A stretch of 15,229 nucleotides of DNA from Acidimicrobiaceae bacterium (lineage in GTDB: Bacteria; Actinomycetota; Acidimicrobiia; Acidimicrobiales; MedAcidi-G1). The stretch spans positions 16,161 through 31,389 of the forward strand of contig PATJ01000013.1 of the NCBI GenBank assembly GCA_002713545.1, read 5' to 3'. The position numbers were made by a program, and so were the translations under genes. This document shows, piece by piece, positions 1 to 15,226 of this stretch (the stretch's first letter is position 1; each line of letters opens with the position of its first letter). The notes below the pieces were generated by a model. It saw only the letters and a list, made by a program, of their open reading frames with translations. It was not told the origin of the DNA and searched no databases.

Positions 1-317
1 GTGACAACTGTAAAATCATGTAAATGACCCGTTCCCTTCCATGGGTCATTGGTTATGTAAACGTCACCTTCGTAAATCCTGTGTGGTCCTATATCTTCGA
101 TGAAGTTAACTACAGCCGCTGCCATAGTGTTTACGTGCCCCGGAGTTCCAGTTATTGCCTGTGCGATCATTCTTCCTTTAGTGTCGTAGACACCCGCTGA
201 TAGATCTCCTGCTTCTCTAACGCTCGTGCTAAAGGCTGTACGAACTAGTGCCAGAGCTTGTTCTTCGACTATTGATATAAGGCGATTCCACATCACTTGG
301 TTTTTTAACTGGTTCAT
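1..317 (-). CDS. hyuB: Hydantoinase B/oxoprolinase (HyuB) family subunit, N-terminal part, cut by window edge
   Basis: This is the first ~105 codons of a HyuB-type subunit; the rest lies left of the window. Reading the minus strand from the ATG at 317-315 gives an open frame to the edge. It contains MNQLKNQVMWNRLISIVEEQ, then AFSTSVREAGDLSAGVYD, GTPGHVNTM and VYITNDPWKGTGHLHD. These blocks are characteristic of the N-terminus of N-methylhydantoinase B / 5-oxoprolinase B-half proteins. HyuB works with HyuA in ATP-dependent opening of hydantoin or oxoproline rings; relatives carboxylate acetone or acetophenone. The ATG overlaps the TGA stop of hyuA by four bases (ATGA), the normal sign of coupled translation of two subunits. 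The family is clear. The substrate cannot be told from this fragment. Confidence 0.88.
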   Translation of the reverse strand, partial: MNQLKNQVMWNRLISIVEEQALALVRTAFSTSVREAGDLSAGVYDTKGRMIAQAITGTPGHVNTMAAAVVNFIEDIGPHRIYEGDVYITNDPWKGTGHLHDFTVV

Positions 318-2407
318 TCGACAGTCTCAGTTTTTTTTGTAATCAGTAGACAATCATCATGCTGGGTGGAGGATTTCTTCTCACTTGAAACCCAAGTCGT
401 TGTTTGACTCTCGACAATTATGGCTGGTCCCATCACACAATCACCAGGGTTTAGATTTTCACGCTGGAAGACAGAAGCTTCAACTTTGCTATCTTTGGCG
501 GGATCGTAGATAACACGTTTCAAATCAGTCGTAACAATATTTTCAGAGTCGACAGTAGTAGTTTTTTCAGTTTCTGGTCTTGGTGATGTGACTTTAACGG
601 ACCACCCGACGACTTCGATCTGTAGACCATCTATGGCCCTACCGAAATGTTCTTCATAAGTTTTCTCAAATTTGTTATTGAGCAATTCGATACCAAGATA
701 GTCAAATATCTCATTTTCTAGAGGTACAGTAATTTCCCATCCTTGCCCCGCGTATCTCATAAAAGCACAACGTTCCACAAGTAGCTCCTCTGGATGAATG
801 TTTTCGTTTGATGCTTCCATCACAAATTCTGTTGCTTCTGAAGTGAGGTTCTCAAGAAGTTGGTTCACACTTTTATGATCAAAATTTTCTATAGAAATGT
901 AGAAGCTTTTTAAAGCTTCGTAAGAAAAAGGTGTTCGAAGAAAGCCTATGGCGGAACCTACTCCTGCTCCTGGGGGAATGAGTAGCCTTTCGATTTCAAG
1001 CTTGTCACATAAACGAGAGGCATGAAGAGGTGCTCCACCACCGAATGCAATCATTGTGTATTGAGATACATCTCTACCATTTTCCACTGCATGAACACGA
1101 GCTGCATTGGCCATATTCTCATCAACAACTTCGATTACTCCTATTGCCGCATTTTCAACGTCTGTTTTAAGCGGCTCTGCTATATCAGTTAATAGAGCTT
1201 TTCTCGATTCATCGGGAATGAGATCAATGTCATCAGCGCCGAAAGTCTCTGGTGATATTCGACCAAGTAACACGTTTGCATCCGTTACTGTTGCTAAAGA
1301 ACCGCCTAATCCGTATGCGGCTGGTCCTGGTTCAGAACCTGCACTTAGAGGGCCTACTCTTATTTGTTTAAGGTCATCAACATTTGCTATTGACCCACCC
1401 CCGGCTCCTATCTCAATCATTTCTATAACAGGTATTGAGATAGGCATTCCGCTTCCTTTTGTGAAGCGGTGGGTTCTTGCCACTTCAAATGTCTTTGCTG
1501 ATCTTGGCGATTGTTCATCTATCAGGCATATTTTTGCAGTTGTGCCTCCCATATCGTAAGAAAGAGCGGCATCTATCCCATGGCGTGCAGCGATTTCTGA
1601 AGCGAAAATAGCTCCGCCGGCCGGGCCTGATTCTATGAGTCTTACAGGAAATTTTATGGCACTTTCTATGCTGATTAATCCACCGCCCGAGTGGATGAGA
1701 TGAATATCGCATTTTGCTCCCGCTTCGGCTAATTTCGTTTTAAGTCTTTCAAGGTATGAAGCCATCATTGGCTGAACGTAAGCGTTTGCGCAGACTGTAT
1801 TAAATCTTTCAAATTCTCTCATTTGAGGTGACACTTCAGAAGAAATTGAAACTTTAATGTTTGGAAGCTGGTCCAAAAGCATTTGCTTAAAGAGAGATTC
1901 ATGTCTGTCGTTCATATATGAATGTATGAAACCAACTGCTACGGCTTCATACCTGTTCTCTTCAAGTGACAGGAGTTTGATCAGGTTTTTAGCTTCCGTC
2001 TGGTTAAAAGGTAAAAGTACCGAACCGTCTGCAGAGACACGTTCTGAAAGTACGTATCTGTCTTTCCGCTCGATCAGTGGTTTGGGTAATTCTAGATTGA
2101 GATCGTATTGCTCGAATCTGCTCTCCGTCCTCATCTCGATAGTGTCTCGAAAACCTTTTGTGGTTACGAAAGCTGTTTCAGCTCCCGTTCTAGAGATCAA
2201 AGCATTTGTGGCTAAAGTCGTACCATGTATGAAAGAGTCAAGTTCAGATAGATCAGATCCTGAATCTTCTATTACAGCATGTATGCCTTGGAGGATTCCT
2301 ATCTCTGGCGATTCATAAGTGGTAAGAACTTTTGTTGAAAAGATTTCTCCTTTTGCTTCGAGGACTATGTCAGTAAAAGTGCCTCCAACATCAGCTCCAA
2401 TTCGCAT
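314..2407 (-). CDS. hyuA: Hydantoinase A/oxoprolinase (HyuA) family ATP-dependent subunit
   Basis: This is the ATP-binding subunit that partners HyuB in ATP-dependent hydrolysis of N-methylhydantoin, oxoproline or similar rings, or in carboxylation in the acetone/acetophenone carboxylase branch; it is cytoplasmic. Visible family blocks include the N-terminal actin-like phosphate loop MRIGADVGGTFTDIVL, HGTTLATNALI, the central ESGPAGGA, YDMGGTTAKICLIDE and GAGGGSIA, then SEPGPAAYGLGG and FGGGAPLHASRL. The length of ~697 residues is normal. I chose the ATG at 2407 because AGGA sits 5 bases before it and homologues start at this MRIG block. An in-frame ATG at 2422 would add MVRNK and is also possible, with GGAG 14 bases before it. 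The gene starts shortly after the SDR stop at 2431 and overlaps hyuB by four bases. The substrate is unknown; a P450 and an SDR upstream suggest an oxidised ring or ketone. Confidence 0.9.
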   Translation of the reverse strand: MRIGADVGGTFTDIVLEAKGEIFSTKVLTTYESPEIGILQGIHAVIEDSGSDLSELDSFIHGTTLATNALISRTGAETAFVTTKGFRDTIEMRTESRFEQYDLNLELPKPLIERKDRYVLSERVSADGSVLLPFNQTEAKNLIKLLSLEENRYEAVAVGFIHSYMNDRHESLFKQMLLDQLPNIKVSISSEVSPQMREFERFNTVCANAYVQPMMASYLERLKTKLAEAGAKCDIHLIHSGGGLISIESAIKFPVRLIESGPAGGAIFASEIAARHGIDAALSYDMGGTTAKICLIDEQSPRSAKTFEVARTHRFTKGSGMPISIPVIEMIEIGAGGGSIANVDDLKQIRVGPLSAGSEPGPAAYGLGGSLATVTDANVLLGRISPETFGADDIDLIPDESRKALLTDIAEPLKTDVENAAIGVIEVVDENMANAARVHAVENGRDVSQYTMIAFGGGAPLHASRLCDKLEIERLLIPPGAGVGSAIGFLRTPFSYEALKSFYISIENFDHKSVNQLLENLTSEATEFVMEASNENIHPEELLVERCAFMRYAGQGWEITVPLENEIFDYLGIELLNNKFEKTYEEHFGRAIDGLQIEVVGWSVKVTSPRPETEKTTTVDSENIVTTDLKRVIYDPAKDSKVEASVFQRENLNPGDCVMGPAIIVESQTTTWVSSEKKSSTQHDDCLLITKKTETVE

Positions 2408-2430
2408 TTTATTCCTAACCATTAGGGGTA

Positions 2431-3246
2431 TTAGTCTCCTTCGAGAATGTCCTGTAAAGGTGGGAATGTGGAAGGTGGGACTATGTCAACGGTTGCGGAT
2501 CTCTGTTGCGAAAGCATTCCTCCATCAACTTTGATTACATCTCCAGTGATGTATTTAGCATCTTCAGAGGCAAGGAAAAGTGCAGGTCCTGCCATGTCGT
2601 CAGGGTCTCCAGGGCGACCAAGAGGTATGTTCTCACCTCGGAGATTTCTTGCTTCTTCGTCCATTCCTTCAGTATCGATTGAACCCGGCATTAGGGCACA
2701 GACTCTTATGCCATAGGGACCTAGGTCAAGTGCCATTGCTCTGGTGAGTGCTTCTATGCCTCCTTTTGAGGCGTCGTACGCGGTAAAAGATCTATGGGCG
2801 CGAGTGGCACCGCCTGACGACATGTTGATAATCACACCGTGCTTTTTGGAAGCCATAATTCTTGCTGCTTGTTGAGAGCAGAGAAAGTGGCCTGTTAAAT
2901 TAACGTCAATGATGCGTCTCCACCAGGCCTCATCTGCTTCGAAGAAATGAAGCATAGGACTTACGATGCCAGCATTGTTCACCAATACGTCGACAGTTCC
3001 AAAGTGTTCTAATGCTGAGTCAAAAATTATTTTCACCTGACTGCTGTCAGCTACGTCAGCAGGAACTCCAATAGAATCACCCCCAGAATCGTTTATGCCT
3101 GTTACTACTTCGCTCACGCTGTTTTCGTCAATGTCATTTACGACTACTTTGGCGCCTTCCTTTGAGAATCTTTCCGCTATAGCGCGGCCGATTCCTTTTC
3201 CTGCACCAGTTACCACCACGACTTGATCTTTGTGACTGTCACTCAT
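2431..3246 (-). CDS. Short-chain dehydrogenase/reductase (SDR), classical type
   Basis: This is an NAD(P)-dependent oxidoreductase of the classical SDR family, 271 residues, cytoplasmic, interconverting an alcohol and a ketone. The cofactor loop TGAGKGIG is at residues 13-20, VNNAGIV near 89-95, the catalytic Ser at ~144 (NMSSGG) and YDASK gives Tyr157 and Lys161, exactly 13 residues after the Ser. ND at 37-38 after the second strand suggests NAD rather than NADP preference. The C-terminus (GDVIKVDGGMLSQQ) is usual, followed by a proline-rich tail of ~25 residues that is longer than in many members. GGAG lies 8 bases before the ATG. It sits between the P450 and HyuA, so it probably oxidises the alcohol made by the P450, or prepares the HyuAB substrate. 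The substrate cannot be assigned. Confidence 0.88.
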   Translation of the reverse strand: MSDSHKDQVVVVTGAGKGIGRAIAERFSKEGAKVVVNDIDENSVSEVVTGINDSGGDSIGVPADVADSSQVKIIFDSALEHFGTVDVLVNNAGIVSPMLHFFEADEAWWRRIIDVNLTGHFLCSQQAARIMASKKHGVIINMSSGGATRAHRSFTAYDASKGGIEALTRAMALDLGPYGIRVCALMPGSIDTEGMDEEARNLRGENIPLGRPGDPDDMAGPALFLASEDAKYITGDVIKVDGGMLSQQRSATVDIVPPSTFPPLQDILEGD

Positions 3247-3264
3247 TAGTCATCTCCAAACATC

Positions 3265-3276
3265 CCTTAATTAAGG
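3265..3276. repeat. Perfect 12-bp palindrome CCTTAATTAAGG in P450-SDR gap
   Basis: The 58-base gap between the P450 stop and the SDR start contains an uninterrupted 12-bp palindrome. With no loop it makes a poor RNA hairpin and has no T-run, so it is not a typical terminator. It could be a dimeric protein-binding site or chance in AT-rich DNA. It lies about 19 bases upstream of the SDR start codon, before its Shine-Dalgarno sequence. Confidence 0.3.
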
Positions 3277-3304
3277 ATATCGAAGATAGAAAGATAATCT
3301 TTAA

Positions 3305-4480
3305 CTAGGCACTTGGGTGGAAAGCTAAATGCGTGTGTCTTCTTACATAGTTTCCGGTTGCGTAGGTAGAAGAAGTTTCATCAGCATAGAAATCAGGAAA
3401 ATTTCTCAAAATTTCTCTAAGCGCTATGGAGGACTGCAGGCGGGCAACAGAAGCACCTAGGCAGAAATGTGCCCCTGACCCAAAACTTAGTATTCGCTTT
3501 ATTTTCCGCTGAATGTCTAACTTTTCAGAATCTTCACCAAATTCACGCTCATCTCTATTCCCAGATCCATAACCAAGAAGAACACGCGATCCAGAAGGTA
3601 TTTTTTCATCATGCAATTCGAAATCTTCCAAAAGAACTCGACTCAAGCCTTGGACAGGGGAGGTCATTCTTAGCAACTCTTCAATCGCGCCGGGTAAAAG
3701 GCGTAAATCTTCTGACAAAAGTTTTCGTTGATCAGGGTTCTCGCTCAGCAGTACTGCCGAACCACCTAATAAACCGGTTGTTGTATCGTTACCCCCAGCG
3801 ATCATAGTGAAAGCCAAACCTAGGATCCACATGATAGAAACTTTCTCTTCGCCCATTTCTATGAGTTCTGAGATCAAGTCATCTCCAGGTGTTTTCTTTC
3901 TCCATTCGATTAATTCGGTAAAATAATTTGTTACTTCGTAAATAGCTTCGAGTCCCTCATTTTCTTCATTGTGTATTGCGCCCGCCACAATTTTTTCTGT
4001 CCAAGTGTCAAAAACAACGCGATCGGATGCTGGTACACCTAAGTACTTTGAAACTACGAAACTTGGTAGCGGTTTAAACAGTTCAGAAATAATGTCGCAG
4101 GTTTCGAGTTCCTTTATTCTATTTATTGCAGATTCAACAAAAGCGGAAATGTCTTCTGTCATATCCTCAGCTTTCCTGGGAGTGAAACCTTTACTTATAA
4201 GCCTTCTAAATTCAGTGTGCTCAGGCGGGTCTAAAAAAACTATCGGAGCAGAATCTCCCATATCTAGATTGTTAGAGTCCTGATCGATCGTTAGACCATG
4301 GCGAGAGGAAAACACTCGAGGATTTCGTGCAGCATTAAAAACATCTTCGAATCGAGACAAAACCCAAAAAGAACCTGTTTCCACGAAATGAACAGGAGAA
4401 TTATTTCTTAGATCAGAGTACATGGGATAAGGATTTCGCCACGATTCACCAGATCTCAGCACGTATGCACTTTCCCCCAT
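3305..4480 (-). CDS. Cytochrome P450
   Basis: This is a soluble bacterial P450 of 391 residues, expected to hydroxylate a small hydrophobic substrate using electrons from ferredoxin or a similar partner; no ferredoxin gene is seen here. The I-helix oxygen-activation motif AGGNDTTTG is at ~228-236, the K-helix ExxR is E268-L-L-R271, and the haem loop FGSGAHFCLG places the axial Cys at ~340. HTEFRRLISKGFTPRKAE near residue 88 is the conserved C-helix region of CYP107/CYP125-like bacterial P450s. No membrane segment is seen. It is the first gene of the minus-strand run and is divergent from the GMC gene 105 bases away. The ATG at 4480 has no good Shine-Dalgarno, so it may be leaderless, or may start at the GTG six codons later, with GGGGGA before it. 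The substrate is unknown. Confidence 0.92.
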   Translation of the reverse strand: MGESAYVLRSGESWRNPYPMYSDLRNNSPVHFVETGSFWVLSRFEDVFNAARNPRVFSSRHGLTIDQDSNNLDMGDSAPIVFLDPPEHTEFRRLISKGFTPRKAEDMTEDISAFVESAINRIKELETCDIISELFKPLPSFVVSKYLGVPASDRVVFDTWTEKIVAGAIHNEENEGLEAIYEVTNYFTELIEWRKKTPGDDLISELIEMGEEKVSIMWILGLAFTMIAGGNDTTTGLLGGSAVLLSENPDQRKLLSEDLRLLPGAIEELLRMTSPVQGLSRVLLEDFELHDEKIPSGSRVLLGYGSGNRDEREFGEDSEKLDIQRKIKRILSFGSGAHFCLGASVARLQSSIALREILRNFPDFYADETSSTYATGNYVRRHTHLAFHPSA

Positions 4481-4585: not shown

Positions 4586-6235
4586 ATGAGTGATTACGAC
4601 ATAGTTATCGTTGGCGGAGGCTCTGCTGGATGTGTACTCGCAAATCGTTTAAGTGAAAACAGTGATGTGAGCGTTCTCTTAATCGAAGCAGGCAGGCGAG
4701 ACCATCGATGGGATTTTGTAATTCATATGCCGGCAGCACTTTCTCTCGGTATAGGTAACAAATTTTACGACTGGAAGTATGAATCTGACCCTGAACCAGG
4801 ACTCGGGGGCAGAAGAGTGTCTCATGCCAGAGGAAAGGTTCTGGGAGGCTCTTCAAGTATAAACGGCATGATATTCCAACGTGGTAATCCCGCTGACTAT
4901 GAACGCTGGGCTGCAACACCGGGTTGCAAAGAGTGGAGCTATTCCCACTGTCTGCCTTATTTTCAACGAATGGAAACCTGTCTTCACGGAGTAGATCGAT
5001 ATAGAGGGGACAGTGGCCCGTTAATGTTGGAAAGAGGACCTGCTTCGAGTCCTTTATTCGGGGCTTTTTTTGATGCAGTGCAGGAAGCCGGTTATGAACT
5101 TACCGAAGATGTAAATGGATACCGACAAGAGGGGTTTTCTTCTTTTGACCGAAATATTTACCAGGGTAGACGAAACTCTGCCTCAGTTGCCTATTTACAC
5201 CCTGTTGCCTCAAGAACGAACTTAGATGTCATAACAAGAGCCCATGTAACAAAAATAATTTTTGACGGCAATAAGGCGGTGGGAGTTGAGTTGAAAAAAG
5301 ATAGACGAAACAAAACAATTAAGGCGGGTGAAGTAATTTGTTGTGGGGGTGCTATAAACACCCCGCAACTCCTACAACTGTCAGGAATAGGTTCAGCTAG
5401 AACTCTTGAGGAAGCCGATGTGAAGACGCTGATTGATCTGCCTGGTGTGGGTGAAAATTTGCAGGATCATCTCGAAGTTTATGTTCAGTACGCCTGTAAA
5501 AAACCTGTTTCAATGTCACCCTATTTAAAAGTTTGGAGGCGACCTTTTGTTTTCCTCCAATGGCTTTTAAGAAGAGGCCCAGGTTCCACCAACCATTTCG
5601 AAGCAGGGGGCTTTGTGAGGGGTAACGAAAGAGTTGAGTGGCCAAATCTTATGTTTCATTTTTTACCTATTGCAATTAGATATGACGGGACCACTCCGGT
5701 CGCAGGTCACGGTTACCAGTTTCACGTCGGGCCAATGTTTTCAGATAGTCGCGGAAGTATCAAAATCAAAACTAATGATCCTTTTGAAAAGCCTTCTATT
5801 AGATTTAATTATCTTTCCACTGAAGAAGATAGAAAAGAATGGATCGAGGCCATTCGTGTTGCCAGAAATATAATGGGCCAGGCAGCTTTCGAAGAATTTA
5901 ACGGGGGCGAGATATCGCCAGGTCCAAATGTGAAAGATGATGATGAGATTTTGAATTGGATCAAAAAGGACTCAGAGACGGCGCTTCATCCATCCTGTTC
6001 TGCTCGAATGGGAACAGACCATATGGCAGTCGTCGATCCTTCATCAATGCGGGTTCATGGAACAGAACAACTGCGAGTGGTTGATGCCTCTGTTATGCCT
6101 AATATCACTAACGGAAATATTTATGCGCCAGTTATGATGCTTGCCGAGAAGGCAGCAGATCTAATATTGGGTAACACTCCACTAACAAGAGACGACTCAC
6201 CTGTCTATAGACATAAAGGAGATGAAAAAATATGA
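4586..6235 (+). CDS. GMC-family flavin oxidoreductase, choline dehydrogenase (BetA)-like
   Basis: This is an FAD-dependent alcohol oxidoreductase of 549 residues in the glucose-methanol-choline family. The dinucleotide fold VGGGSAG is at 9-15 with the acidic E34 after strand 2 (LLIEAG). The two GMC signatures are [13 protein letters not shown] at 83-95 and [16 protein letters not shown] at 254-269. The C-terminal HPSCSARMG gives catalytic His468, and PNITNGN gives Asn511, the same His/Asn pair used by choline oxidase. The tail [11 protein letters not shown]...[14 protein letters not shown] is very BetA-like. Membership is certain. Choline as substrate is only one possibility, because BetA-like GMC enzymes also oxidise long-chain, polyethoxylated and aromatic alcohols. 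No signal peptide is seen. GGAG precedes the ATG, and the TGA overlaps the next gene's ATG by four bases, so the two are translated together. Confidence 0.92.
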
Positions 6236-7344
6236 CCAGTGAAATTGCTATCGGCCCGCGAGTCAGAAAGTCCCCTTTTTACGACGCGACGATTTCACAT
6301 GGAGTTAAGCAATTTTCGGTTTACAACCATATGTATATGCCAACTTCATATGGGGACCCAGTTGCTGAGTATCAGGCGTTAACTGAAAGGGTTTCCATTT
6401 GGGATGTGGCTGTAGAGCGTCAAGTCGAGATAGTCGGTTCTGGAGCTCTCGAATTAGTTGATTATTTGTCTACCAGAGGAATGAGATCATGCAAGGAAGG
6501 TAGATCTCGGTACACGCCAATTTGTGACCACACGGGAATTCTGATTAATGACCCCATAACACTGTGTCTTGAGAAAGACCGTTATTGGATGTCGATCGCA
6601 GATGGTGACCTACTACTCTGGGCACAAGCTATAAGTTATGAAAGAAACCTTGAATGTAGTGTCTTTGAGCCAGAAGTTTCACCTTTGGCAGTTCAAGGAC
6701 CTAAATCCTATGAAACTATGGCTGATTTACTCGGAGATTGGGTAATGAAAATACCATTTTTTGGTTTTGTAGATACTGAGTTAGACGGCATTCCATTTTT
6801 GATTTGTCGGTCAGGTTGGAGTGGTCAAGGTGGTTTTGAATTGTTTCTGACTGATGAATCTAAAGGTATAGATCTTTGGGAAAGAGTTTGGGAAGCTGGT
6901 TTGAAATATGGCATACACCCAGGGACACCTAACGCTGTCGAAAGAATAGAAAGTGAGCTACTTTCATATAGGGCCGACTGCGCGGCTTCAGCAACTCCTC
7001 TGGAATTGGGTCTGGAACGCTTTATGAATCTAGAAAGAGAAGATCATTTCATAGGAAAAGAAGCTTTACTCTCAGAAAAAAGTAGGGGGCCCTCCAGGCG
7101 ATTGGTAAAGGTCATGTTGTCAGGAGAGGGTCTAACTGCACCAAATCAAGAACCGTGGCCTGCATTTGATGAATCAGGAAATGAAATCGGAGAAATACGC
7201 GTAGTGGCATGGTCGCCTGCCATGAAAGGAAATTTGGGTTTGGCATTAGTTTCAAGTAAAAACGCCGGCGAAGATTTCAACGCAGTCAGTAAAGATGGCC
7301 AAAGTTATAGAGCAACACATCTAAGTTACTTTGGCGAAAGGTAA
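6232..7344 (+). CDS. DmdA-like tetrahydrofolate-dependent demethylase (GcvT/aminomethyltransferase family)
   Basis: This is a folate-binding protein of the GcvT family, 370 residues, resembling dimethylsulfoniopropionate (DMSP) demethylase DmdA more than glycine-cleavage T protein. Features I recognise from DmdA are YNHMYMPT at 31-38, WDVAVERQV at 57-65, [13 protein letters not shown] at ~94-108 and [13 protein letters not shown] at 121-133, then [11 protein letters not shown] at ~149-159 and [12 protein letters not shown] at 193-204. GcvT has an Asp-Asp at the NDP position (106-108), so NDP points away from true GcvT, and no gcvH or gcvP is nearby. DmdA moves a methyl group from DMSP to tetrahydrofolate. 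DmdA-like relatives act on other methylated sulfonium, amine or ether compounds, so DMSP is plausible but not proven. The ATG overlaps the GMC stop (ATGA), with GGAG 10 bases before it. Confidence 0.85.
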
Positions 7345-7426: not shown

Positions 7427-8461
7427 ATGGAAAGTTCAAGCCAGTTTCTCGAACTCTCAGATGAAGACCCAGCCACTATTTATGAAGTATTTGAGAGTCA
7501 TGGTTGGGGAGATGGGCTGCCACTAGTGCCACCCACTGACAAACGTGTGACTGAAATGCTCAGTCATGTGAAGGCTTCTCCGGAAGAAGTACTCGCAGTT
7601 CTTCCGCCACGGGGAGGATCCGCAACTTATAGAGCTGTGGCGGTTAACGCAGTTTTAGCGGGATGCAAACCTGAGTATTTCCCTATTGTTGTAGAAGCGG
7701 TAAAGGCTTTAGGTAGTCAAAAAATCAATTTGCGTGGGGTCAATACAACTACCCATCCTGTAGCCCCGTTATTGATAGTTCATGGCAGGGTAGTTGATGA
7801 GCTTGGCTTTAATTCAGGTTTGGGTACGTTTGGGCCCGGCAACAGGGCAAACGCGACCGTAGGTAGGGCAATGCGACTCGTGTTGCTGCACATTGCTGGG
7901 GCAGTACCCGGTCCGGGTGATGCCTCAACGCAAGGTCAGCCTTCAAAATACACTTATTGCATTGCAGAGAATCAAAAAGAAAACCCTTGGGAGTCGTATC
8001 CCGAGTCACTCGGGCTTGATTCAGAAAGTGCACTGACTATTCACTGTGGTGAAAACCCACACAATTTTCACGATATGGAATCAGAAAACATAGAGAGGGT
8101 ACTTGATAAAGCAGCTTCGGTTATGACAACTTTTGGAGTAAATAATGCTTGTATCTCAGGCGGTGAATGGTTCGTAATTCTTTGTCCCGAACATGCTGCA
8201 ACTGCAGTAAACCAGGGATGGAGTAGGGAAGATGTTTCTAATTACTTATTTGAGAAAGCAAGAATGCCCGCTGGCAGCTTTCGAGAACAGTTTAACTTAT
8301 TAGCATGGGCAGATTGGATGACTTCACTTCCAGACAAAGAGTTAGTGCCGATGACTCAACAGGTTGAAAACATCAAAGTTTTAGTAAGTGGAGGTGCCGG
8401 AAAGCATTCGTGCGTAGTCCCCAGCTGGGGGATGACCAGAAGTGTGACAGTTCCAATATAA
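7427..8461 (+). CDS. Conserved protein with GWGDGLPLVPPT motif, adjacent to UGSC selenoprotein
   Basis: This 344-residue protein has no catalytic family I can name. It has a strong N-terminal motif GWGDGLPLVPPT at 26-37. Next come GLGTFGPGNRANATVGRA around 131-148 and GDASTQGQPSKYTYCIAENQ at 164-183, then CISGGEWFVILCPEHAA near 242-258. Near the end is a glycine-rich VSGGAGKHSCVVPSWG with Cys329. No signal peptide or membrane helix is evident. I have seen GWxDGLPxVPPT proteins as uncharacterised genes in actinobacteria and marine lineages, and I recall them beside UGSC proteins, which I cannot check here. It ends 22 bases before the UGSC gene, so a shared complex or reaction is likely. Several conserved-looking Cys and His residues could serve redox or metal chemistry. 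The ATG at 7427 has only GGGTG directly before it, a poor Shine-Dalgarno, so the start is uncertain. Confidence 0.8.
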   Translation: MESSSQFLELSDEDPATIYEVFESHGWGDGLPLVPPTDKRVTEMLSHVKASPEEVLAVLPPRGGSATYRAVAVNAVLAGCKPEYFPIVVEAVKALGSQKINLRGVNTTTHPVAPLLIVHGRVVDELGFNSGLGTFGPGNRANATVGRAMRLVLLHIAGAVPGPGDASTQGQPSKYTYCIAENQKENPWESYPESLGLDSESALTIHCGENPHNFHDMESENIERVLDKAASVMTTFGVNNACISGGEWFVILCPEHAATAVNQGWSREDVSNYLFEKARMPAGSFREQFNLLAWADWMTSLPDKELVPMTQQVENIKVLVSGGAGKHSCVVPSWGMTRSVTVPI

Positions 8462-8463
8462 AT

Positions 8464-8475
8464 GGAGAGGAGAGG
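8464..8475 (+). promoter_or_regulatory. Strong ribosome binding site of the UGSC selenoprotein gene
   Basis: GGAGAGGAGAGG offers two stacked Shine-Dalgarno cores ending 8 bases before the ATG at 8484. It is purine-rich and far stronger than the site before the preceding gene. It fixes the start and shows that the first part, upstream of the in-frame TGA, is really translated. Confidence 0.75.
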
Positions 8476-8483
8476 TTTAATCT

Positions 8484-9017
8484 ATGAATATGAAGATTCA
8501 CAGTCCTGAGGGTGAGCTAATAGATGAAGTGGTTGAACTGTGTTCAACTGCACCATTATTTTCTGGTGGGAAGATAGGGGTTCTTGAGAACGGCAAACCT
8601 AATGCTGATCTTTTATTAACAAAAATTGCTGAAGGACTTGCGGAGAGAATTAATGCAAAGGTTTCGGTAATCACTGGAAAAGGCGAAAGAGCTAATGCTG
8701 CCACGGCATGCAATCCCCAAGTAATTGGAATGCTTGCAGAGGAAGTTCAATTAGTTTTAACGGGGTCGGCTGATTGAGGATCCTGCACTTCGTGGAGTGT
8801 CCACGATTTGATTGAAATCGAAAAAGCAGGAGTACCAGCAGTTGTTTTCACCACAGAAAATTTTGAAGAATTAACCCGTTCGGCTGCTAATAGCTTGGGT
8901 GTGCCTAAAGCGAGGATAGTTGTGGTTCCACATCCTTTAGGTGGTACAGAAAAAGAAGTTGTCGCTAGCTGGGCTGATTCGGCCATAGACGATTTGCTTA
9001 AAGTATTGGAGGCTTAG
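8484..9017 (+). CDS. UGSC-family selenoprotein with in-frame TGA (selenocysteine 98)
   Basis: This is a 177-residue protein if the TGA at 8775-8777 is read as selenocysteine. The frame before it (97 codons) and after it (to TAG at 9017) is the same, and the junction reads GSAD-U-GSCTSWSVHD. That creates the U-G-S-C motif for which a family of marine and soil (seleno)proteins is named; Cys replaces Sec in other members. The N-terminal half (KIGVLENGKPNAD, then a helix and VSVITGKG) and the C-terminal half (GVPAVVFTTENFEE, RIVVVPHPLGG) look like one alpha/beta fold around the motif. The Sec/Cys pair, spaced U-x-x-C like thioredoxin-type redox centres, suggests redox catalysis, but no function is established to my knowledge. 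It follows the GWGDGLP protein by 22 bases and ends 1 base before the next SDR start. Normal callers would report two broken ORFs. Confidence 0.88.
8775..8777 (+). other. Selenocysteine codon TGA (Sec98)
   Basis: The TGA is followed in frame by GGA TCC TGC ACT TCG TGG, giving U-G-S-C-T-S-W. Nearby genes in the window end with ordinary TGA stops (hyuA, GMC, the 9019 SDR), so this is local recoding rather than a changed genetic code. Recoding requires selA, selB, selC and selD elsewhere in the genome; none is in this window. Confidence 0.85.
8790..8806 (+). promoter_or_regulatory. Candidate bacterial SECIS hairpin just after the Sec codon
   Basis: TCGTGGAGTGTCCACGA folds into a perfect 7-bp stem with the loop GUG (8797-8799). 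The stem begins 12 bases after the TGA, and 19 bases separate the TGA from the loop. Bacterial SECIS elements lie right behind the UGA, with a small apical loop carrying a G in its first two positions, at roughly this distance. Two further pairs (8786-8787 with 8809-8810) can extend it below a 2x2 internal loop. The hairpin lies inside the coding sequence (Ser-Trp-Ser-Val-His-Asp). Confidence 0.7.
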
Positions 9018-9018
9018 T

Positions 9019-9810
9019 TTGTCTATCGAAATCGATCATTCGGAAAAAAATGTTGTTGTAACAGGTGCGGGCGCTGGAATAGGACGCTCTATAGCACTAG
9101 AGTTCGCTCGAGCTGGGGCAAATGTTGCTGTTCTGGATAAGAGAGCCGACAAAGCACAGGAAACTGTTGAAGTGATAACTGCCCTAAATCAAGGGTTTTC
9201 TTATTCTGTTGTTGGTGACGCTCGCGAAGAGGGTCAGATCGAAAGAATGTTTGATGAGTCTTCAACCAAGCTAGGTGGAATTGATATAGCGGTCAACAAT
9301 ATTGGAATGCTTGGTTCTGAGGGAACTGCCCCACTGTTGGAAATGAATGAGAAAAAGTGGAGAGACGTGTTAGAACAAAATCTTTTAGTAACGGCTTTGT
9401 CCATGAAGTCAGAAGTAAAACACATGAGAGAGACCGGAAATGGTGTAATCATTAATGTGAGTTCAGGAGAAACGACGAGGCCAAGCCCCTTCTTAGCTGG
9501 TTACGGTGCGGCCAAAGCAGGAATAAATCACCTGACTCAGACAGCGGCAGTGGAATTTGGACCTATGGGTATAAGAGTGATTGCAGTTGCTCCAGGTACA
9601 ACCTTGACCGAAACAGTTGTAGATTTTTTTGATGAAGATCGAATTTCAGCTATACAACAATCAAATCCATTAAGAAGAATGAGTGAAATAGAAGACCTAG
9701 GTTACTTGTCTGTTTTTTTAGCCTCTGATTTTGCTCAGAATATTACTGGTCAGTTATTTTTAGCTGATGCAGGTGCCCATTTGTCACGCGAAAGGCCACC
9801 AAATGTCTGA
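9019..9810 (+). CDS. Short-chain dehydrogenase/reductase (SDR), TTG start
   Basis: This is a classical SDR of 263 residues, an NAD(P)-dependent alcohol/ketone oxidoreductase. It has TGAGAGIG at 15-22, Asp40 after strand 2 (VAVLDK), which favours NAD, and NNIG at 93-96, where most members have NNAG. The catalytic Ser is ~149 (NVSSGE), with Tyr162 and Lys166 (YGAAK). The C-terminus GQLFLADAGAHLS replaces the usual VDGG. The start is TTG; it is supported by GGAGG at 9008-9012, six bases upstream, inside the end of the selenoprotein gene and one base after its stop. This arrangement couples its translation to reading through the Sec codon. It likely serves the same pathway as the selenoprotein; the substrate is unknown. 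Confidence 0.87.
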   Translation: MSIEIDHSEKNVVVTGAGAGIGRSIALEFARAGANVAVLDKRADKAQETVEVITALNQGFSYSVVGDAREEGQIERMFDESSTKLGGIDIAVNNIGMLGSEGTAPLLEMNEKKWRDVLEQNLLVTALSMKSEVKHMRETGNGVIINVSSGETTRPSPFLAGYGAAKAGINHLTQTAAVEFGPMGIRVIAVAPGTTLTETVVDFFDEDRISAIQQSNPLRRMSEIEDLGYLSVFLASDFAQNITGQLFLADAGAHLSRERPPNV

Positions 9811-9853
9811 GTGGCTTTATGAAAAATACGATCCTATGAATAAATATGGATAG
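9803..9853 (+). CDS. Possible 16-residue leader peptide overlapping the SDR end and PhyH start
   Basis: An ATG at 9803, inside the last codons of the SDR, has AAAGG about 8 bases before it and opens a frame reading MSEWLYEKYDPMNKYG before TAG at 9851-9853. The PhyH ATG at 9846 lies inside its final codons, in another frame. PhyH has no Shine-Dalgarno of its own, so the mini-frame could carry ribosomes to it. Alternatively it is the true N-terminus of PhyH separated by a one- or two-base indel, real or a sequencing error. I cannot tell which. Confidence 0.35.
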   Translation: MSEWLYEKYDPMNKYG

Positions 9854-10721
9854 TTTCCCGTCTTCTGATCCAATGAGGTCTGTTACTCAGGCAGAGGTCT
9901 CTTCTTTTGCTTCAGATGGGGTGGTCCATCTGCCCGATATTGTGAAAAAAGATTGGATCGAACTGCTTGATTCCTCTCTGGAAAAGATGCTTAACGACCC
10001 CAAAATGTTTGCGGACCTTACAGCGCTGAGCAACGATTTAAATGAAACCCAAGATCTGTTGGCATTAAAAGAAAATGAGATGAAAAGTGGGAGATTTTTA
10101 TCGGGTATAGACCACTGGAAAGAAGATAAAAATTTTGCTGCGTTTGCAAAAGTTTCCCCACTCCCTTCAATAGTGGCGAAACTTATGAACTCAAAAAGAG
10201 TTTACCTGTATGAAGATTCTGTTTTGATTAAAGAACCCGGCACAACTGAAGAAACTGCCTTCCATCAAGATCTTGGATATTTCCATTTGACAGGTGAGAG
10301 TATATGTACAGTCTGGGCTCCTTTAGATGACGTGGACTCTGAAACAGGTAGTGTCGTTTATCTCCGCTCATCTCACAAGAATAAAAAAGTGTTCAAGCCG
10401 AATTGGTTTGTCGCGAATGAACCTTTACCTGATACAAAAGGCAAATACCTACCCAATATTGAAATCGATGACAAAAAGCTAGATTTGTTAAGGTTCGATA
10501 CAAAACCTGGAGATTTAGTTGTGCATCACGCGCTGACTCTTCACGGGGCAGGTGCAAACAGCTCAGCCACTAGACAACGACGCGCTGTTTCGGTTCGCTA
10601 CTGTGGAGATGATTCCACCTATAAGATTCGCTCTGGTGCTCCTAAAAAACCTCATCATGAAAATATACGAACCGGAGACCCTGTGGTAGACCACCCAGAT
10701 TGTCCGCTGGTTTGGGGTTAG
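9846..10721 (+). CDS. Phytanoyl-CoA dioxygenase (PhyH) family Fe(II)/2-oxoglutarate oxygenase
   Basis: This is a non-haem iron, 2-oxoglutarate-dependent dioxygenase of 291 residues, expected to hydroxylate a small substrate and release succinate and CO2. The N-terminus has the family start TQAEVSSFASDGVVHLPDIV. The iron triad is visible: FHQD gives His140 and Asp142, and TLHGAG gives His233. The Arg residues at 243-246 (TRQRRAVSVRY) fit the 2-oxoglutarate carboxylate site. WAPLDDVDSETGSVVYLRSSH is the usual core between them. Family members act on phytanoyl-CoA, ectoine and many natural products; nothing here points to one. It closes the plus-strand run and converges, 17 bases apart, with the alcohol dehydrogenase. 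The start lacks a Shine-Dalgarno and overlaps a short upstream frame, so the exact N-terminus is uncertain. Confidence 0.87.
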   Translation: MDSFPSSDPMRSVTQAEVSSFASDGVVHLPDIVKKDWIELLDSSLEKMLNDPKMFADLTALSNDLNETQDLLALKENEMKSGRFLSGIDHWKEDKNFAAFAKVSPLPSIVAKLMNSKRVYLYEDSVLIKEPGTTEETAFHQDLGYFHLTGESICTVWAPLDDVDSETGSVVYLRSSHKNKKVFKPNWFVANEPLPDTKGKYLPNIEIDDKKLDLLRFDTKPGDLVVHHALTLHGAGANSSATRQRRAVSVRYCGDDSTYKIRSGAPKKPHHENIRTGDPVVDHPDCPLVWG

Positions 10722-10738: not shown

Positions 10739-11815
10739 TTACTTATGTCTATGAGATAAGACAGCCCGAACAGCATCATTTGACGCGGTTCTATTTAATA
10801 CCGCCATGGCCTCATCTATTTGGTCCATTCCGAAAACTTCTCCTAGTAACGGAGCAGTAGGAAATTTTTTTGTATTAAGAATCTCGACAGCTTCCTTCAA
10901 TGACTTGTTGGTACCACCAGCTCCGCCATGAATAGTAAGTCCTCTCATCACTGCAGTGTCCGTTACGACTGGAACTGCTTCTCGATCTTTAAGACCTGCC
11001 CAAATAACATCCCCTCCATACCGGACTAGATCAAGACATAACCCAGGCACTAGCGAGGCACTACTTAGATCTACTACAAGGTCAGCCATTATGCCGTTAG
11101 TAATTTCTGTAATCTTTTCGATGGGGTCCTCATTTGATACATCAATAACAAAATCGGCTCCTACTTCTTCTGCTATTGAGAGCCTGTGGTTATCTTCGCT
11201 GGTTCCTGTGACGATCACTTTGTCGGCTCCCATTTGCTTGGCCATAGCAGCAAAAGTCAAACCCATGTGGCCAGGCCCTTGTATTACCACTTTCATTTTT
11301 TGACTCCAATGAATGCGACTTGTCCAGGCGATGACATTGCTTAGAGGTTCAAAAATAGTTAACTCTTCGGCTGATATTTCGTCAGTTAATCGTTCAAGTT
11401 GGGTTCTCGGGAGAATAGACATGTATTCTCCGTAACCTCCCCAGAGCCCCTCAGCTTCATCAAGTCCAAAACTGTATCCATAGCAACTGAAACCAAAGGG
11501 ATTTGAATCTGAAGGTTCTGTGGGTACAACAATGTTTACTGCTACACGGTCTCCAATTTTGACCCCAAGTTCTGCATCCGGATCCAAGTCATAGACTCTG
11601 CCAACAATTTCGTGACCGGGAACAGTTGGAGAAACTTCCCCTGGAACGTGTTTTTGACCGTTTAATTGCGCCACATCGCTATGACAGAGGCCCACAGCTT
11701 CAACGGCAATGACTGCTCCACCTTCTGGGGGTTTGGGGATATCAAAGTTGTCTTTTCGCTCCCAACTGCCATCCCCATTAAAGATGACAGCTGAACAGTT
11801 ATCCATGTTTGACAT
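10739..11815 (-). CDS. Zinc-type alcohol dehydrogenase (MDR superfamily) lacking the structural-zinc cysteines
   Basis: This is a medium-chain dehydrogenase/reductase, about 358 residues, NAD(P)-dependent. Catalytic zinc ligands are present: GLCHSD (Cys44), GHE (His68-Glu69) and FEPL (Glu156). The Rossmann loop is GPGHMG at 180-185, followed by a strand ending VIVTGT. The structural-zinc loop, usually four cysteines after GDRV, is replaced by a stretch with a single Cys (PFGFSCYGYSFG), so only the catalytic metal is expected. It may oxidise an alcohol intermediate of the neighbouring beta-oxidation genes. The frame opens at a TTG at 11830, three bases after the thiolase stop. I prefer the ATG at 11815 because GGA lies 10 bases before it and TTG has no Shine-Dalgarno. 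A further ATG at 11806 is also possible. It is the last gene of the right-hand minus-strand run. Confidence 0.85.
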   Translation of the reverse strand: MSNMDNCSAVIFNGDGSWERKDNFDIPKPPEGGAVIAVEAVGLCHSDVAQLNGQKHVPGEVSPTVPGHEIVGRVYDLDPDAELGVKIGDRVAVNIVVPTEPSDSNPFGFSCYGYSFGLDEAEGLWGGYGEYMSILPRTQLERLTDEISAEELTIFEPLSNVIAWTSRIHWSQKMKVVIQGPGHMGLTFAAMAKQMGADKVIVTGTSEDNHRLSIAEEVGADFVIDVSNEDPIEKITEITNGIMADLVVDLSSASLVPGLCLDLVRYGGDVIWAGLKDREAVPVVTDTAVMRGLTIHGGAGGTNKSLKEAVEILNTKKFPTAPLLGEVFGMDQIDEAMAVLNRTASNDAVRAVLSHRHK

Positions 11816-11833
11816 TGACGTTAAATCCAAAAG

Positions 11834-13012
11834 TTATAAACGTTGTAAAAGGGTTCCGGTTCCCAGACCTCCACCGCAACACATTGTTACCAAGGCGTGT
11901 TCAGTGTCAGTCCGATGAAGTTCATGGACTGCCTTAGTCATTAATATTGCACCTGTTCCACCAAGAGGGTGACCTAAAGCTATTGCTCCTCCGTTTGGGT
12001 TGACACGTTCCATGTCGGGGTTTGTCTCCTTTTCCCACGCTAGAACAACAGATGCAAATGCCTCATTGATTTCAACGAGATCTATGTCGTCAATTTTCAT
12101 TCCATTATCATTTAAGATTTTTTCGGTCGCAAATATTGGTCCAGTTAGCATGAATTCAGGGTCTGAACCAACTAAACAGCTGTCAACAATTTTTGCCAAA
12201 GGTTTCAATCCAAGGTCCGCTGCTTTTTGTGCCGTCATCATTAATACTGCTCCAGCACCATCCGAGATTTGTGAAGAAGTTCCAGCAGTGTGAACACCAT
12301 TTTCACGTCCTGATGGTTTCAGACCAGCGAGTGATTCCATAGTGGTTTCTCGAAGCCCTTCGTCGCGAGTAACTGTAACATTCTCTCCTGAAGGGTTTCC
12401 TTCTTCATCATTAACTGGGACCTCTATTGAAGTTATTTGTGTAGCGAATCGATCTTCTGACCAGGCTCTAGCAGCGCGATCTTGCGAAAGCTTTCCGAAA
12501 GTATCACAATCGTTGCGACTGATTTTCCAATGATCAGCAATTCTTTCAGATCCTTCGAATTGACTTGTCATCTCGAAATGGTCAAAGTAGTTACGATTTA
12601 CTGGACTTCCAGCATTTGGTTCTTTAGGAATCGTCGCCCCGAAGCCAACCTGGCTCATAAGTTCCACACCACATCCAACAGCAGAGTCGACAGTTCCCGA
12701 AGCCACGAGAGCGTATGCAAGATTAGTCGCTTGTTGAGAAGAACCGCATTGCGCATCGACCGTCGTAGCGGCCACTTCAATTGGCAGCCCTGCAGTTAGC
12801 CATGCTGTACGAGTGACATTCATAGTCTGCATACCTACTTGACCTACACACCCGCCAACTACTTGACCAACTTCTTTAGGATCCATCCCGGTTCTCTCGA
12901 ATAAGGAACTTTGAACTGCTCCTAGTAGGTCTATGGAGTGTGAGTTGGAAAGACCTCCACCTCTCTTACCTATGGGGCTTCTCACAGCATCTACTATCAC
13001 AACTTCTTGCAT
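11834..13012 (-). CDS. Acetyl-CoA acetyltransferase / 3-ketoacyl-CoA thiolase
   Basis: This is a thiolase of 392 residues that cleaves 3-ketoacyl-CoA with CoA to release acetyl- or propionyl-CoA, the last step of beta-oxidation. Catalytic residues are visible: Cys89 in VDAQCGSSQQ (acyl carrier), His348 in GHPLGGTGA and Cys378 in MCCGGGLGTG, plus the NEAF motif. The DAQCGSSQQATNLAYA block and the GGTGA after GHPL resemble mycobacterial FadA5/FadA6-type thiolases of steroid breakdown more than E. coli FadA (from memory, not aligned). AAGGAGA at 13019-13025 lies 6 bases before the ATG. It follows the acyl-CoA dehydrogenase by 43 bases and is followed by the alcohol dehydrogenase after 3-18 bases. 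A degradative role is inferred from the neighbours. Confidence 0.93.
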   Translation of the reverse strand: MQEVVIVDAVRSPIGKRGGGLSNSHSIDLLGAVQSSLFERTGMDPKEVGQVVGGCVGQVGMQTMNVTRTAWLTAGLPIEVAATTVDAQCGSSQQATNLAYALVASGTVDSAVGCGVELMSQVGFGATIPKEPNAGSPVNRNYFDHFEMTSQFEGSERIADHWKISRNDCDTFGKLSQDRAARAWSEDRFATQITSIEVPVNDEEGNPSGENVTVTRDEGLRETTMESLAGLKPSGRENGVHTAGTSSQISDGAGAVLMMTAQKAADLGLKPLAKIVDSCLVGSDPEFMLTGPIFATEKILNDNGMKIDDIDLVEINEAFASVVLAWEKETNPDMERVNPNGGAIALGHPLGGTGAILMTKAVHELHRTDTEHALVTMCCGGGLGTGTLLQRL

Positions 13013-13055
13013 TTTATATCTCCTTATTTATTACAGTTAGTGGGTATCAGTACTT

Positions 13056-14294
13056 TCAGATCGGTAAGTTTCCGGTAGCCGAAGAAGTTGAGCCATGATC
13101 TTTGAAAGCGGCTATTGTCCTCTGAGCTATGCGCATTTGATGAATCTCATCGGCACCATCAGCAAATCTAGACCATCTAGCATGTTGATACATGTGAGCT
13201 AGGGGAGTGTCTGTCGAGTAGCCCAGAGCACCATGCACTTGTATAGCGCGATCTATTATTCGGTTTAGACTGTTTGCTACGAAGTGTTTTGCCATTGAAA
13301 CTTCTGATTTGAAGTCATCTCCATTGTCGATTTTCGAAGCGGCATGCAAGACCATTAGTTTGCATTGGTAAAGTTCCATCGCAGAATCAGCAATCATCCA
13401 CTGGATTCCTTGCTTTTCAGCCAGGATTGAACCATGGCTATATCTTTCTAAAGATCTTTCAACGGTCATGTCAAGCGCCATCTCAGCCTGGGCGATCCAT
13501 CTCATGCAGTGTGCCAATCGAGCTGGACCTAAACGATATTGACCGAGCAAATGCCCCTGACCTCTTCCGCCTAGCATCTGGGAGTCGTGAACCCTTAGGT
13601 CTTCGATTACTATTTCGGAATGACCAGTTGAGCCGTGCATTGTTTCTATTTCTCGCGCTTCGGTCCAACCTTCGGAAGGAAGGTCGATAATAAAGGCTGT
13701 GTTTGCTGCCTGAGGTAGTTCAGGATCATCTTCGGTTCTGGCAATTAGGATCGCAAAATTTGCTCGATGTGCATTTGAAATGAACCATTTATGCCCGTTG
13801 ATAACCCACTCTTCGCCATCTTGGTAAGCATTTGTCTGGATAAGCGTTGGATCTGACCCAGCTACTTCAGGTTCAGTCATAGCAAAGCAAGAAGTAGCTG
13901 TTCCCTGACAAAGAGGTTTAAGGTATTTTTCTTTTTGATCGTCCGTAGCCCAGTGCAACATGGTGTGCATGTTTCCTTCATCTGGGGCCTGACAATTCAG
14001 CACCCAAGGTCCGTAATAGGACTTGGCTGCTTCAGCTTGGACCATAGCCATAGCCACGTGTCCCAATTCCATTCCGCCCCATTCTTTTGGCATGTGGGGC
14101 AGCCAGAGGCCCTCTTCGAAGGCTTCTTTGCGCATTTCAATTAATTTGCTAATCCTGTCTTTAGGATTTAATGGTTCTGTCCCATTGGAGCCTTCTATCG
14201 TTTCTTCTCCGGGTTTTACTACCCGGTCAATGAAGTCGCGTACGTTATTCCGTATTTCTTCCAACTCTGGCGAAAGTGTGAAATCAATTGCCAT
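13056..14294 (-). CDS. Acyl-CoA dehydrogenase, ACAD10/11-like
   Basis: This is a flavoprotein of 412 residues that makes the trans-2 double bond in acyl-CoA and passes electrons to ETF. The N-terminal helical domain contains LPKEWGG-type HMPKEWGGMELG; the middle domain has CFAMTEPEVAGSDPT (FAD/substrate loop) and WVINGHKWFISNAHRA; the C-terminal domain has RAIQVHGALGYSTDTPLAHMYQHAR. In the C-terminal motif FADGADEIH, Asp379 occupies the place of the catalytic Glu in YEGTNEI, as in ACAD10/11-type enzymes. This group handles long, branched or hydroxylated acyl-CoAs. The ATG overlaps the last base of the upstream SDR stop (TAATG), so translation is coupled and no separate Shine-Dalgarno is needed. 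The substrate is unknown. Confidence 0.92.
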   Translation of the reverse strand: MAIDFTLSPELEEIRNNVRDFIDRVVKPGEETIEGSNGTEPLNPKDRISKLIEMRKEAFEEGLWLPHMPKEWGGMELGHVAMAMVQAEAAKSYYGPWVLNCQAPDEGNMHTMLHWATDDQKEKYLKPLCQGTATSCFAMTEPEVAGSDPTLIQTNAYQDGEEWVINGHKWFISNAHRANFAILIARTEDDPELPQAANTAFIIDLPSEGWTEAREIETMHGSTGHSEIVIEDLRVHDSQMLGGRGQGHLLGQYRLGPARLAHCMRWIAQAEMALDMTVERSLERYSHGSILAEKQGIQWMIADSAMELYQCKLMVLHAASKIDNGDDFKSEVSMAKHFVANSLNRIIDRAIQVHGALGYSTDTPLAHMYQHARWSRFADGADEIHQMRIAQRTIAAFKDHGSTSSATGNLPI

Positions 14295-15226
14295 TAGATA
14301 TCTTTGCTGGGCCTTCCAGGTCCTTCCGTTGGCATACCGCTCATATCGGGATTAAGTTGCGCATCTTTCATTAGTTCTTTGACTATGTCTGTGAGCCCCT
14401 CAGGGTCATCGGTCTGTTTAGCAGATGGCCCTAGATGCCATTGTTCGGCTATTCCAAGTCTTTCCCCGACAACGTCGAAAACACGTCCTGTTACGTTTTG
14501 AGCTGCTTCGCTGCAAAGCCAAGCAGTGATTACAGAAATCCATCTTGGACTCATTGCTTCTTCAGCACCTTCGTCTGTGCCAACTATTCCTGGTAGGTCA
14601 GCGGTCATACGTGTGAAAGCTGCAGGTGCAAGACAGTTTACTGTTACGCCATATTTGACCAGTTCCATTGCTGTGATAACAGAAAATGCTGCGATACCAG
14701 CTTTAGCTGCACCATAGTTTGCCTGACCAACGTTGCCGTAAATTCCGGAAGGTGAAGAAGTATTAATGATTCTTCCAAAGGCTTCGCCTCCAGCCTTTAC
14801 TGTTTCCCGCCAGAATACTGATGCGTGATGAACAGTTGAGAATGTCCCTTTAAGATGGACATTTATAACAGCATCGAAGTCGTCTTCAGACATTGAAAAA
14901 ATCATTCGGTCACGCAAAATTCCAGCGTTATTGATCAAAATGTCCAACCGTCCCCAAGTGTCAATTGCTTGTTGAACCATCTCACCAGCAGCAGTAAAGT
15001 CGGCTACATTCGCGCCATTTACGATTGCTTCGCCACCCATTTCAACTATTTCGTTGACTACTTCTTGTGCGGGGCTTAGGTCACTGCCGGATCCATCCAT
15101 ATCGCCACCGAGATCGTTTACGACCACTTTTGCACCCTGGCTTGCAAGCATGATCGCATGTTCGCGCCCAATGCCTCTTCCCGCTCCAGTAACGATAGCT
15201 ACACGACCTTCACAGAGGTTGCCCAT
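14294..15226 (-). CDS. SDR resembling the (3R)-hydroxyacyl-CoA dehydrogenase domain of MFE-2 / 17-beta-HSD4
   Basis: This is an SDR of 310 residues. TGAGRGIGREHA at 13-24 and VVVNDLGGDMDGSG at ~34-47 are hallmarks of the dehydrogenase part of peroxisomal multifunctional enzyme 2 and its actinobacterial relatives. INNAGILRDRMIFSMSEDD follows near 98-116. The catalytic Ser is ~158, with Tyr171 and Lys175 (YGAAK). A C-terminal extension of ~60 residues past the SDR core ends GPGRPSKDI. Such proteins oxidise 3-hydroxyacyl-CoA to 3-ketoacyl-CoA, which fits the acyl-CoA dehydrogenase and thiolase downstream. A matching MaoC-type hydratase is not in view and may lie right of the window. The ATG is at 15226, three bases from the edge, so the ribosome site is not visible and a longer start cannot be excluded. 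Confidence 0.88.
   Translation of the reverse strand: MGNLCEGRVAIVTGAGRGIGREHAIMLASQGAKVVVNDLGGDMDGSGSDLSPAQEVVNEIVEMGGEAIVNGANVADFTAAGEMVQQAIDTWGRLDILINNAGILRDRMIFSMSEDDFDAVINVHLKGTFSTVHHASVFWRETVKAGGEAFGRIINTSSPSGIYGNVGQANYGAAKAGIAAFSVITAMELVKYGVTVNCLAPAAFTRMTADLPGIVGTDEGAEEAMSPRWISVITAWLCSEAAQNVTGRVFDVVGERLGIAEQWHLGPSAKQTDDPEGLTDIVKELMKDAQLNPDMSGMPTEGPGRPSKDI

Follow-up and report, generated by a model that had tools for sequence, protein, structure and literature searches.

The question raised by this locus is whether an in-frame TGA is read as selenocysteine (Sec) and, if it is, what kind of enzyme the resulting protein belongs to. The locus lies in a 15,229-nucleotide (nt) stretch of DNA from an Acidimicrobiaceae bacterium of the MedAcidi-G1 lineage (contig PATJ01000013.1 of assembly GCA_002713545.1, positions 16,161 to 31,389 of the forward strand), which is referred to here as the window. 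The gene in question, at positions 8484 to 9017, encodes a protein of the UGSC family, and the gene directly upstream encodes a partner protein. Taken together, the observations favor, with modest confidence, a two-subunit selenoenzyme that resembles the glycine reductase component GrdB and performs reductive cleavage of carbon-heteroatom bonds.

The UGSC gene runs on the plus strand from an ATG at 8484 to a TAG stop codon at 9015 to 9017. A purine-rich stretch at 8464 to 8475 (+), 8 nt upstream of the ATG, resembles a ribosome-binding site and is putative. With TGA translated as Sec, the product comprises 177 residues, and the TGA at 8775 to 8777 (+) specifies Sec98, the first position of the motif U98-G99-S100-C101. 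The preliminary description had joined two open stretches into this single gene with U-G-S-C at the TGA and had assigned it to a family with Sec or cysteine (Cys) in the first place of the motif. Translation and homology confirm the first statement, and the curated family profiles and aligned homologues agree with the second. With the TGA read as Cys, the protein scores 140.4 bits against PF24696 (cutoff, 25) and 133.1 bits against NF041046 (cutoff, 125), and positions 8484 to 9017 cover the full UGSC domain. The small protein resembles this family throughout, including the U-G-S-C motif and the exchange of Sec for Cys.

Joined open stretches alone are weak proof of such a gene, since two of the nine TGA-ended stretches of at least 90 codons in the window remain open for 79 codons past their TGA. 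One of the two is the UGSC gene; the other, at 12291, is antisense within a thiolase gene. TGA also serves as an ordinary stop codon, terminating 4 of the window's 13 genes, and the TGA of the UGSC gene is the sole internal stop in all 13. The UGSC frame goes beyond chance because homologues span the site with Cys. All 48 aligned homologues (153 to 196 residues, picked from the 120 listed of 254 database matches) continue past the site and carry Cys opposite the TGA, the outcome that the preliminary description had named as support. The expectation that gene callers would split the gene is likewise borne out, since the databases hold the cut-off form: 15 of the 120 homologues listed are 97-residue proteins with 82 to 97% identity, which represent this gene in close relatives, truncated at the TGA. 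One of the 15, P0029, is an entry without a source and may represent the window's own gene. In a position check, the motif coincides with a stop codon, always TGA, in 55 of 57 loci, and a profile search of 61 genomes places a single TGA inside 83 of 85 UGSC matches. In six orthologues from the same genus, changes fall mostly on third codon positions both upstream and downstream of the TGA; for the nearest orthologue, third-position versus other changes number 24 versus 11 before the TGA and 22 versus 5 after it.

A hairpin of 17 nt similar to a selenocysteine insertion sequence (SECIS), TCGTGG-AGTGT-CCACGA, begins 12 nt after the TGA at 8790 to 8806 (+) and is conserved and covarying in the Sec copies. 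The comparison covers 97 distinct UGSC copies (106 before the removal of identical 78-nt stretches), 73 of them with a stop codon at the site and 24 with Cys there. A stem with no more than one of its six pairs lost is present in 71 of the 73 stop-codon copies, compared with 8 of the 24 Cys copies. Among the 73, the loop is closed by G-C in 36 and by C-G in another 36. The Ser-Val of a Trp-Ser-Val sequence is encoded by AGT GTC in all 34 Sec copies and by AGC GTG in all 3 Cys copies with these residues, so that the codon choice for the same residues follows the need for Sec. Residue differences in the other Cys copies account for part of the lost pairs, and Fisher values for the hairpin are only a guide because the UGSC copies are related. 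Folds of single sequences are weak (z of −1.5 to −2.2), and a 51-nt piece favored another hairpin than the conserved one; the hairpin is proposed from the comparison among copies and not from single-sequence folding. Searched against Rfam, the window yielded nothing at the gathering thresholds. In Geodermatophilus sp. DSM 45219, TAG replaces TGA in the UGSC gene with the hairpin kept (L176:7001-7516), and the same genome contains a tRNA-Sec with the anticodon CTA (L185:1501-1592). Such a change of the Sec codon in Geodermatophilaceae, UGSC proteins included, has already been published, according to the accessible passages of that report (PMC5330540).

The preliminary description had proposed a search for the sel genes, and its outcome is divided. 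selA (390.9 bits), selB (282.8 bits), and selD (279.5 bits) are present in the bacterium's own genome, all over their cutoffs, with selA adjoining selB on contig C20 and selD on C28. The selD gene (C28:16495-17412, −) itself contains an in-frame TGA and probably encodes a selenoprotein too. No tRNA-Sec (selC) over the cutoff is found in this assembly, which comprises 1.50 Mb in 47 contigs and is 78.6% complete, and the eight that were checked of its nine weaker matches are ordinary tRNAs. A tRNA-Sec over the cutoff occurs in seven of eight relatives of the same genus and in 31 of 41 genomes, the own genome counted among the 41. UGSC and tRNA-Sec occur together in 28 of these genomes, UGSC without tRNA-Sec in 4, tRNA-Sec only in 3, and neither in 6 (Fisher P of 0.003, a value that treats the genomes as independent, which they are not). 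The four genomes with UGSC and without tRNA-Sec are the own genome, G008, G018, and G037, which are 69 to 85% complete. The tRNA-Sec gene of this bacterium is presumably among the sequences that the assembly lacks.

Its absence from the contigs would suit a true stop at the TGA, either in a gene for a 97-residue protein or in a pseudogene, or a TGA that stems from a sequencing error, as would the normal use of TGA at the ends of other window genes and the occurrence of chance-joined open stretches. Such a stop is exceedingly improbable in light of the recurrence of TGA at the motif across loci and profile matches, the sequence constraint that continues downstream, the hairpin comparison, and the sel genes. 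The insertion of Sec at 8775 to 8777 in vivo can be regarded as almost certain. The gene is thus a new member of the known UGSC selenoprotein family. UGSC proteins have been common among the selenoproteins of marine surveys since 2008, with 255 sequences in the accessible passages of the survey of that year (PMC2398784), and make up 8.2% of selenoprotein genes according to passages of another study (PMC9402790). The earlier characterization of the family as marine is too narrow, since the same 2008 passages describe it as relatively more common in non-marine samples (PMC2398784). The passages available from a 2026 review place UGSC with selenoproteins of largely uncharacterized biological function (PMC13188914).

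The most informative part of the locus is the gene upstream of UGSC, which the preliminary description had not singled out. It encodes a protein of 344 residues with a DGLPxVPPT-type motif (7427 to 8461, +), ends 22 nt upstream of UGSC, and is assigned as a partner subunit by its adjacency to UGSC and a natural fusion. Its residues C178 and E181 are conserved in the partner family. Broad profiles applied to the 61 genomes yield 85 UGSC and 84 partner matches, and the 47 genomes with UGSC are precisely those with a partner. For 83 of the 85 UGSC matches, a partner lies on the same strand within 2 kb (within 123 nt in 82 of the 83), and 83 of the 84 partner matches adjoin UGSC. The partner comes first in 76 pairs and UGSC in 7. 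Three matches are unpaired: two in genome G048 are located where a contig ends, and the third, in G015 (C18:57555), is without explanation. The partner profile was built mostly from UGSC-adjacent proteins, but nothing restricted the search to such proteins. In the fusion, P0247, an open frame of 561 residues in G048 (L092:4399-6084, −), a Cys-type UGSC domain is followed by the partner. The near-obligate adjacency, the identical set of 47 genomes, and this fusion indicate that the two proteins very probably form one enzyme, with the partner as the large subunit and UGSC as the small catalytic subunit.

The fusion came from a relative's DNA and not from the protein database, where the best 120 of 1,700 matches to a chimeric query of partner and UGSC cover at most 67% of it, so that fusions are neither found nor excluded there. 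The accessible passages of the 2008 survey mention a fusion of UGSC to "Unknown_1," which may be the same protein as the partner (PMC2398784). The UGSC passages of the literature consulted neither name a partner protein nor connect UGSC with GrdB, and the two-subunit enzyme is a variant that they do not describe. The partner family comprises 2,696 database proteins at expectation values (E) of up to 1e−3. The partner itself (7427 to 8461) has no Pfam or NCBIfam match, and nine divergent relatives together with the fusion gave nothing convincing for the partner part in the same databases. A nickel-dependent epimerase model (E of 0.0064) and a HEAT-repeat model (E of 0.0077), each matched by one protein, were dropped as weak. 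Sequence searches of the PDB found no match for the partner and a single match for UGSC, a designed protein at an E of 0.21. The UGSC family is expanded in G048, with ten matches. Three loci (L153, L154, and L159) come from metagenome bins titled Bifidobacterium breve; their Cys-type UGSC pairs resemble those of other actinobacterial bins, and the titles seem doubtful. A Cys form of the pair also occurs in Yinghuangia.

The chemistry of the pair is suggested by a distant similarity of UGSC to GrdB, the Sec subunit of glycine reductase. The model TIGR01917 (glycine reductase protein B) is matched by 33 of 49 UGSC members at an E of up to 0.01 (best, 9e−7), and related models are matched less often. 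BLASTP aligns the window protein with the GrdB of a related genome at an E of 1e−5, with Sec98 on Sec346. Sec, G116, P118, and H150-P151 hardly vary across the UGSC family and are identical in the aligned GrdB stretch, where E113 is replaced by Asp. Homology between UGSC and the Sec domain of GrdB can be assumed from these alignments with considerable confidence.

Several results weigh against a closer reading of this similarity and against a GrdB-like enzyme as a whole. The window protein scores 21 bits with the GrdB model, far below the cutoff of 602, and a profile comparison with one GrdB gives an E of 0.0018 but a probability of 15%. No UGSC member matches the Pfam model GRDB (PF07355) at an E of up to 0.1, which may be explained by a model that ends where the Sec stands. 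C101, kept in 30 of 30 rows of a broad UGSC alignment, corresponds to Gly in the two GrdB relatives compared. The motif of GrdB is UxxCxxxC, and the window protein lacks the further Cys, with Trp and Ser at residues 104 and 105. The motif is given as UxxCxxC in the accessible passages of the 2026 review (PMC13188914). The two GrdB relatives are also without the further-Cys motif, so that this feature separates little. Finally, the partner shows no relation to GrdB or to two GrdE-like proteins (E of 0.39 and 0.51 for GrdE with the partner profile). By these scores, UGSC is at most a distant relative of GrdB and not a GrdB. The Pfam model itself has 347 positions and appears to end at the Sec codon (L118:1501-2538), and the short matches of many relatives stop near its end; it may have been built from proteins truncated at Sec.

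Among the known Sec reductases, GrdB, GrdF, and GrdH of glycine, sarcosine, and betaine reductase share with UGSC the Sec in the same place and a second subunit alongside, whereas they are about 435 residues long compared with 177 and their GrdE partner is unlike the UGSC partner. GrdA has no match in 57 of the 61 genomes, among them the incomplete own genome; the four genomes with GrdA are the four with a strong GrdB match. Since GrdA was not found, the pair probably makes no use of the acetyl-phosphate branch known from glycine reductase. PrdB of D-proline reductase, a Sec subunit with a UxxC motif as in UGSC, takes part in reductive ring cleavage according to the passages available (PMC13188914 and PMC9312934), and only 4 of the 49 UGSC members match the PrdB model (best E, 0.0025). 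The fluoroacetate dehalogenase FarB/FarE of Cloacibacillus likewise combines a GrdB-like Sec subunit with a second subunit, and C-F cleavage is proposed for it; unlike the UGSC pair, it has GrdB/GrdE-type subunits, belongs to a bacterium of the rumen, and is predicted to feed GrdA, as described in the accessible passages (PMC10838667).

Two other roles for the Sec have to be weighed against reductive cleavage. UGSC could function in the manner of thioredoxin, given its UxxC motif and the C101 found in every row of the broad alignment but not in the two GrdB relatives, and passages of the 2008 survey are cited in support (PMC2398784). The AlphaFold2 model of UGSC (mean confidence score pLDDT of 89) predicts a five-strand alternating alpha/beta fold in which the Sec lies where a helix begins. 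In a structural comparison with this model, folds of the CheY, flavodoxin, and cobalamin-domain type rank highest, and no enzyme family is prominent. The order of strands and helices in thioredoxin differs from the five-fold alternation predicted for UGSC. Neither a thioredoxin nor GrdB is among the 50 structural matches listed, which excludes nothing. A thioredoxin-like function appears rather unlikely, as the distant sequence similarity points to GrdB, and a near-obligate partner and many paralogues, ten of them in G048, fit substrate-specific enzymes better.

Alternatively, the pair would use its Sec otherwise, for the binding of a metal, a thiol cofactor, or an acyl group, and would form a new type of selenoenzyme whose likeness to GrdB is only ancestral. 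The dissimilarity of the partner to GrdE and GrdB, the rarity of GrdA among the genomes, the absence of C101 from the two GrdB relatives, and the weak match of one partner homologue to the nickel-dependent epimerase model accord with this possibility. The shared residues argue against it, since the near-invariant positions of UGSC around the Sec recur in GrdB, and it is considered improbable. Cleavage chemistry of the GrdB type is proposed by analogy and tentatively, with chances put slightly short of even; the estimate was lowered a little, from evenly balanced, because C101 is not common to the GrdB relatives.

The hairpin at 8790 to 8806 very probably directs Sec insertion at the TGA together with SelA, SelB, SelD, and tRNA-Sec. 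In the mechanism proposed for GrdB-like cleavage, the partner would hold a small substrate, and the selenolate of Sec98 would attack its carbon and expel an amine, a thiol, or a similar leaving group. A thiol reductant, acting perhaps via C101, would then resolve the selenium-bound intermediate and release the reduced product.

The neighboring genes form a conserved run on the plus strand. A GMC oxidoreductase (4586 to 6235) scores 797.2 bits with TIGR01810 and passes the choline dehydrogenase cutoff of 732.1. It is followed by a methyltransferase of the tetrahydrofolate-dependent type (6232 to 7344) that is closest to the dimethylsulfoniopropionate (DMSP) demethylase DmdA, with 350.5 bits for NF009133, below the cutoff of 410. 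A short-chain dehydrogenase (SDR) (9019 to 9810; PF13561/PF00106) comes next after UGSC, and a PhyH-family dioxygenase (9846 to 10721; PF05721, 78.3 bits) ends the run. The order GMC, DmdA-like, partner, UGSC, SDR, and PhyH is kept in eight loci: that of the window, six others from the same genus, and a single locus from a different genus in the family. This kept gene order makes plausible the earlier view that a selenium redox enzyme forms the core of a catabolic operon. More distant type A loci mostly contain partner and UGSC, often with the SDR retained. Given the DmdA-like and choline-dehydrogenase-like neighbors, a demethylated sulfonium or ammonium compound can be guessed as the substrate, with low probability. 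A literature search on selenoproteins with DMSP demethylase gave nothing relevant among the top matches listed.

A second UGSC gene of the own genome, also with TGA (C10:51959-52387, −; L025:11947-12465), lies downstream of a separate partner paralogue and of a thioredoxin-like gene that encodes a CPTC motif, and a D-2-hydroxyacid dehydrogenase gene follows it. Among 58 loci searched, the thioredoxin-like query matched 22 (type B operons) and the dehydrogenase query 13, one at only 31% identity. A MauE-type gene lies downstream in some type B loci, and some other UGSC copies are found near transporters or a coenzyme A (CoA)-transferase. Two gene-neighbor clusterings, in which a crude gene finder over-called long open reading frames in GC-rich DNA, were used only for the same-strand runs confirmed by tblastn and for the MauE-type neighbor. 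Circumstantially, the context suits a catabolism of small organic acids with a supply of thiol. The region around the second copy (L025:5000-20000) contains scattered undetermined positions, seen as X in translations. The flanks of the window at 314 to 4480 and 10739 to 15226 encode, on the other strand, a caprolactamase/hydantoinase-type subunit, a P450-like protein (by sequence), SDRs, a steroid-type thiolase, and an acyl-CoA dehydrogenase.

With a near-obligate partner family and a chemical model derived from GrdB, the function of UGSC becomes directly testable. Assays of the small UGSC protein alone could fail should the partner be needed. A far-reaching and decidedly speculative extension, which is held to be improbable, is that UGSC and its partner represent a large overlooked class of GrdA-independent two-subunit selenoenzymes, in which the choice of substrate would rest with the partner and reductive cleavage of C-S or C-N bonds with the Sec or Cys subunit; in this lineage, a methylated onium compound would first be demethylated by the DmdA-like neighbor. 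If true, this would constitute an undescribed branch of marine organic sulfur or nitrogen turnover.
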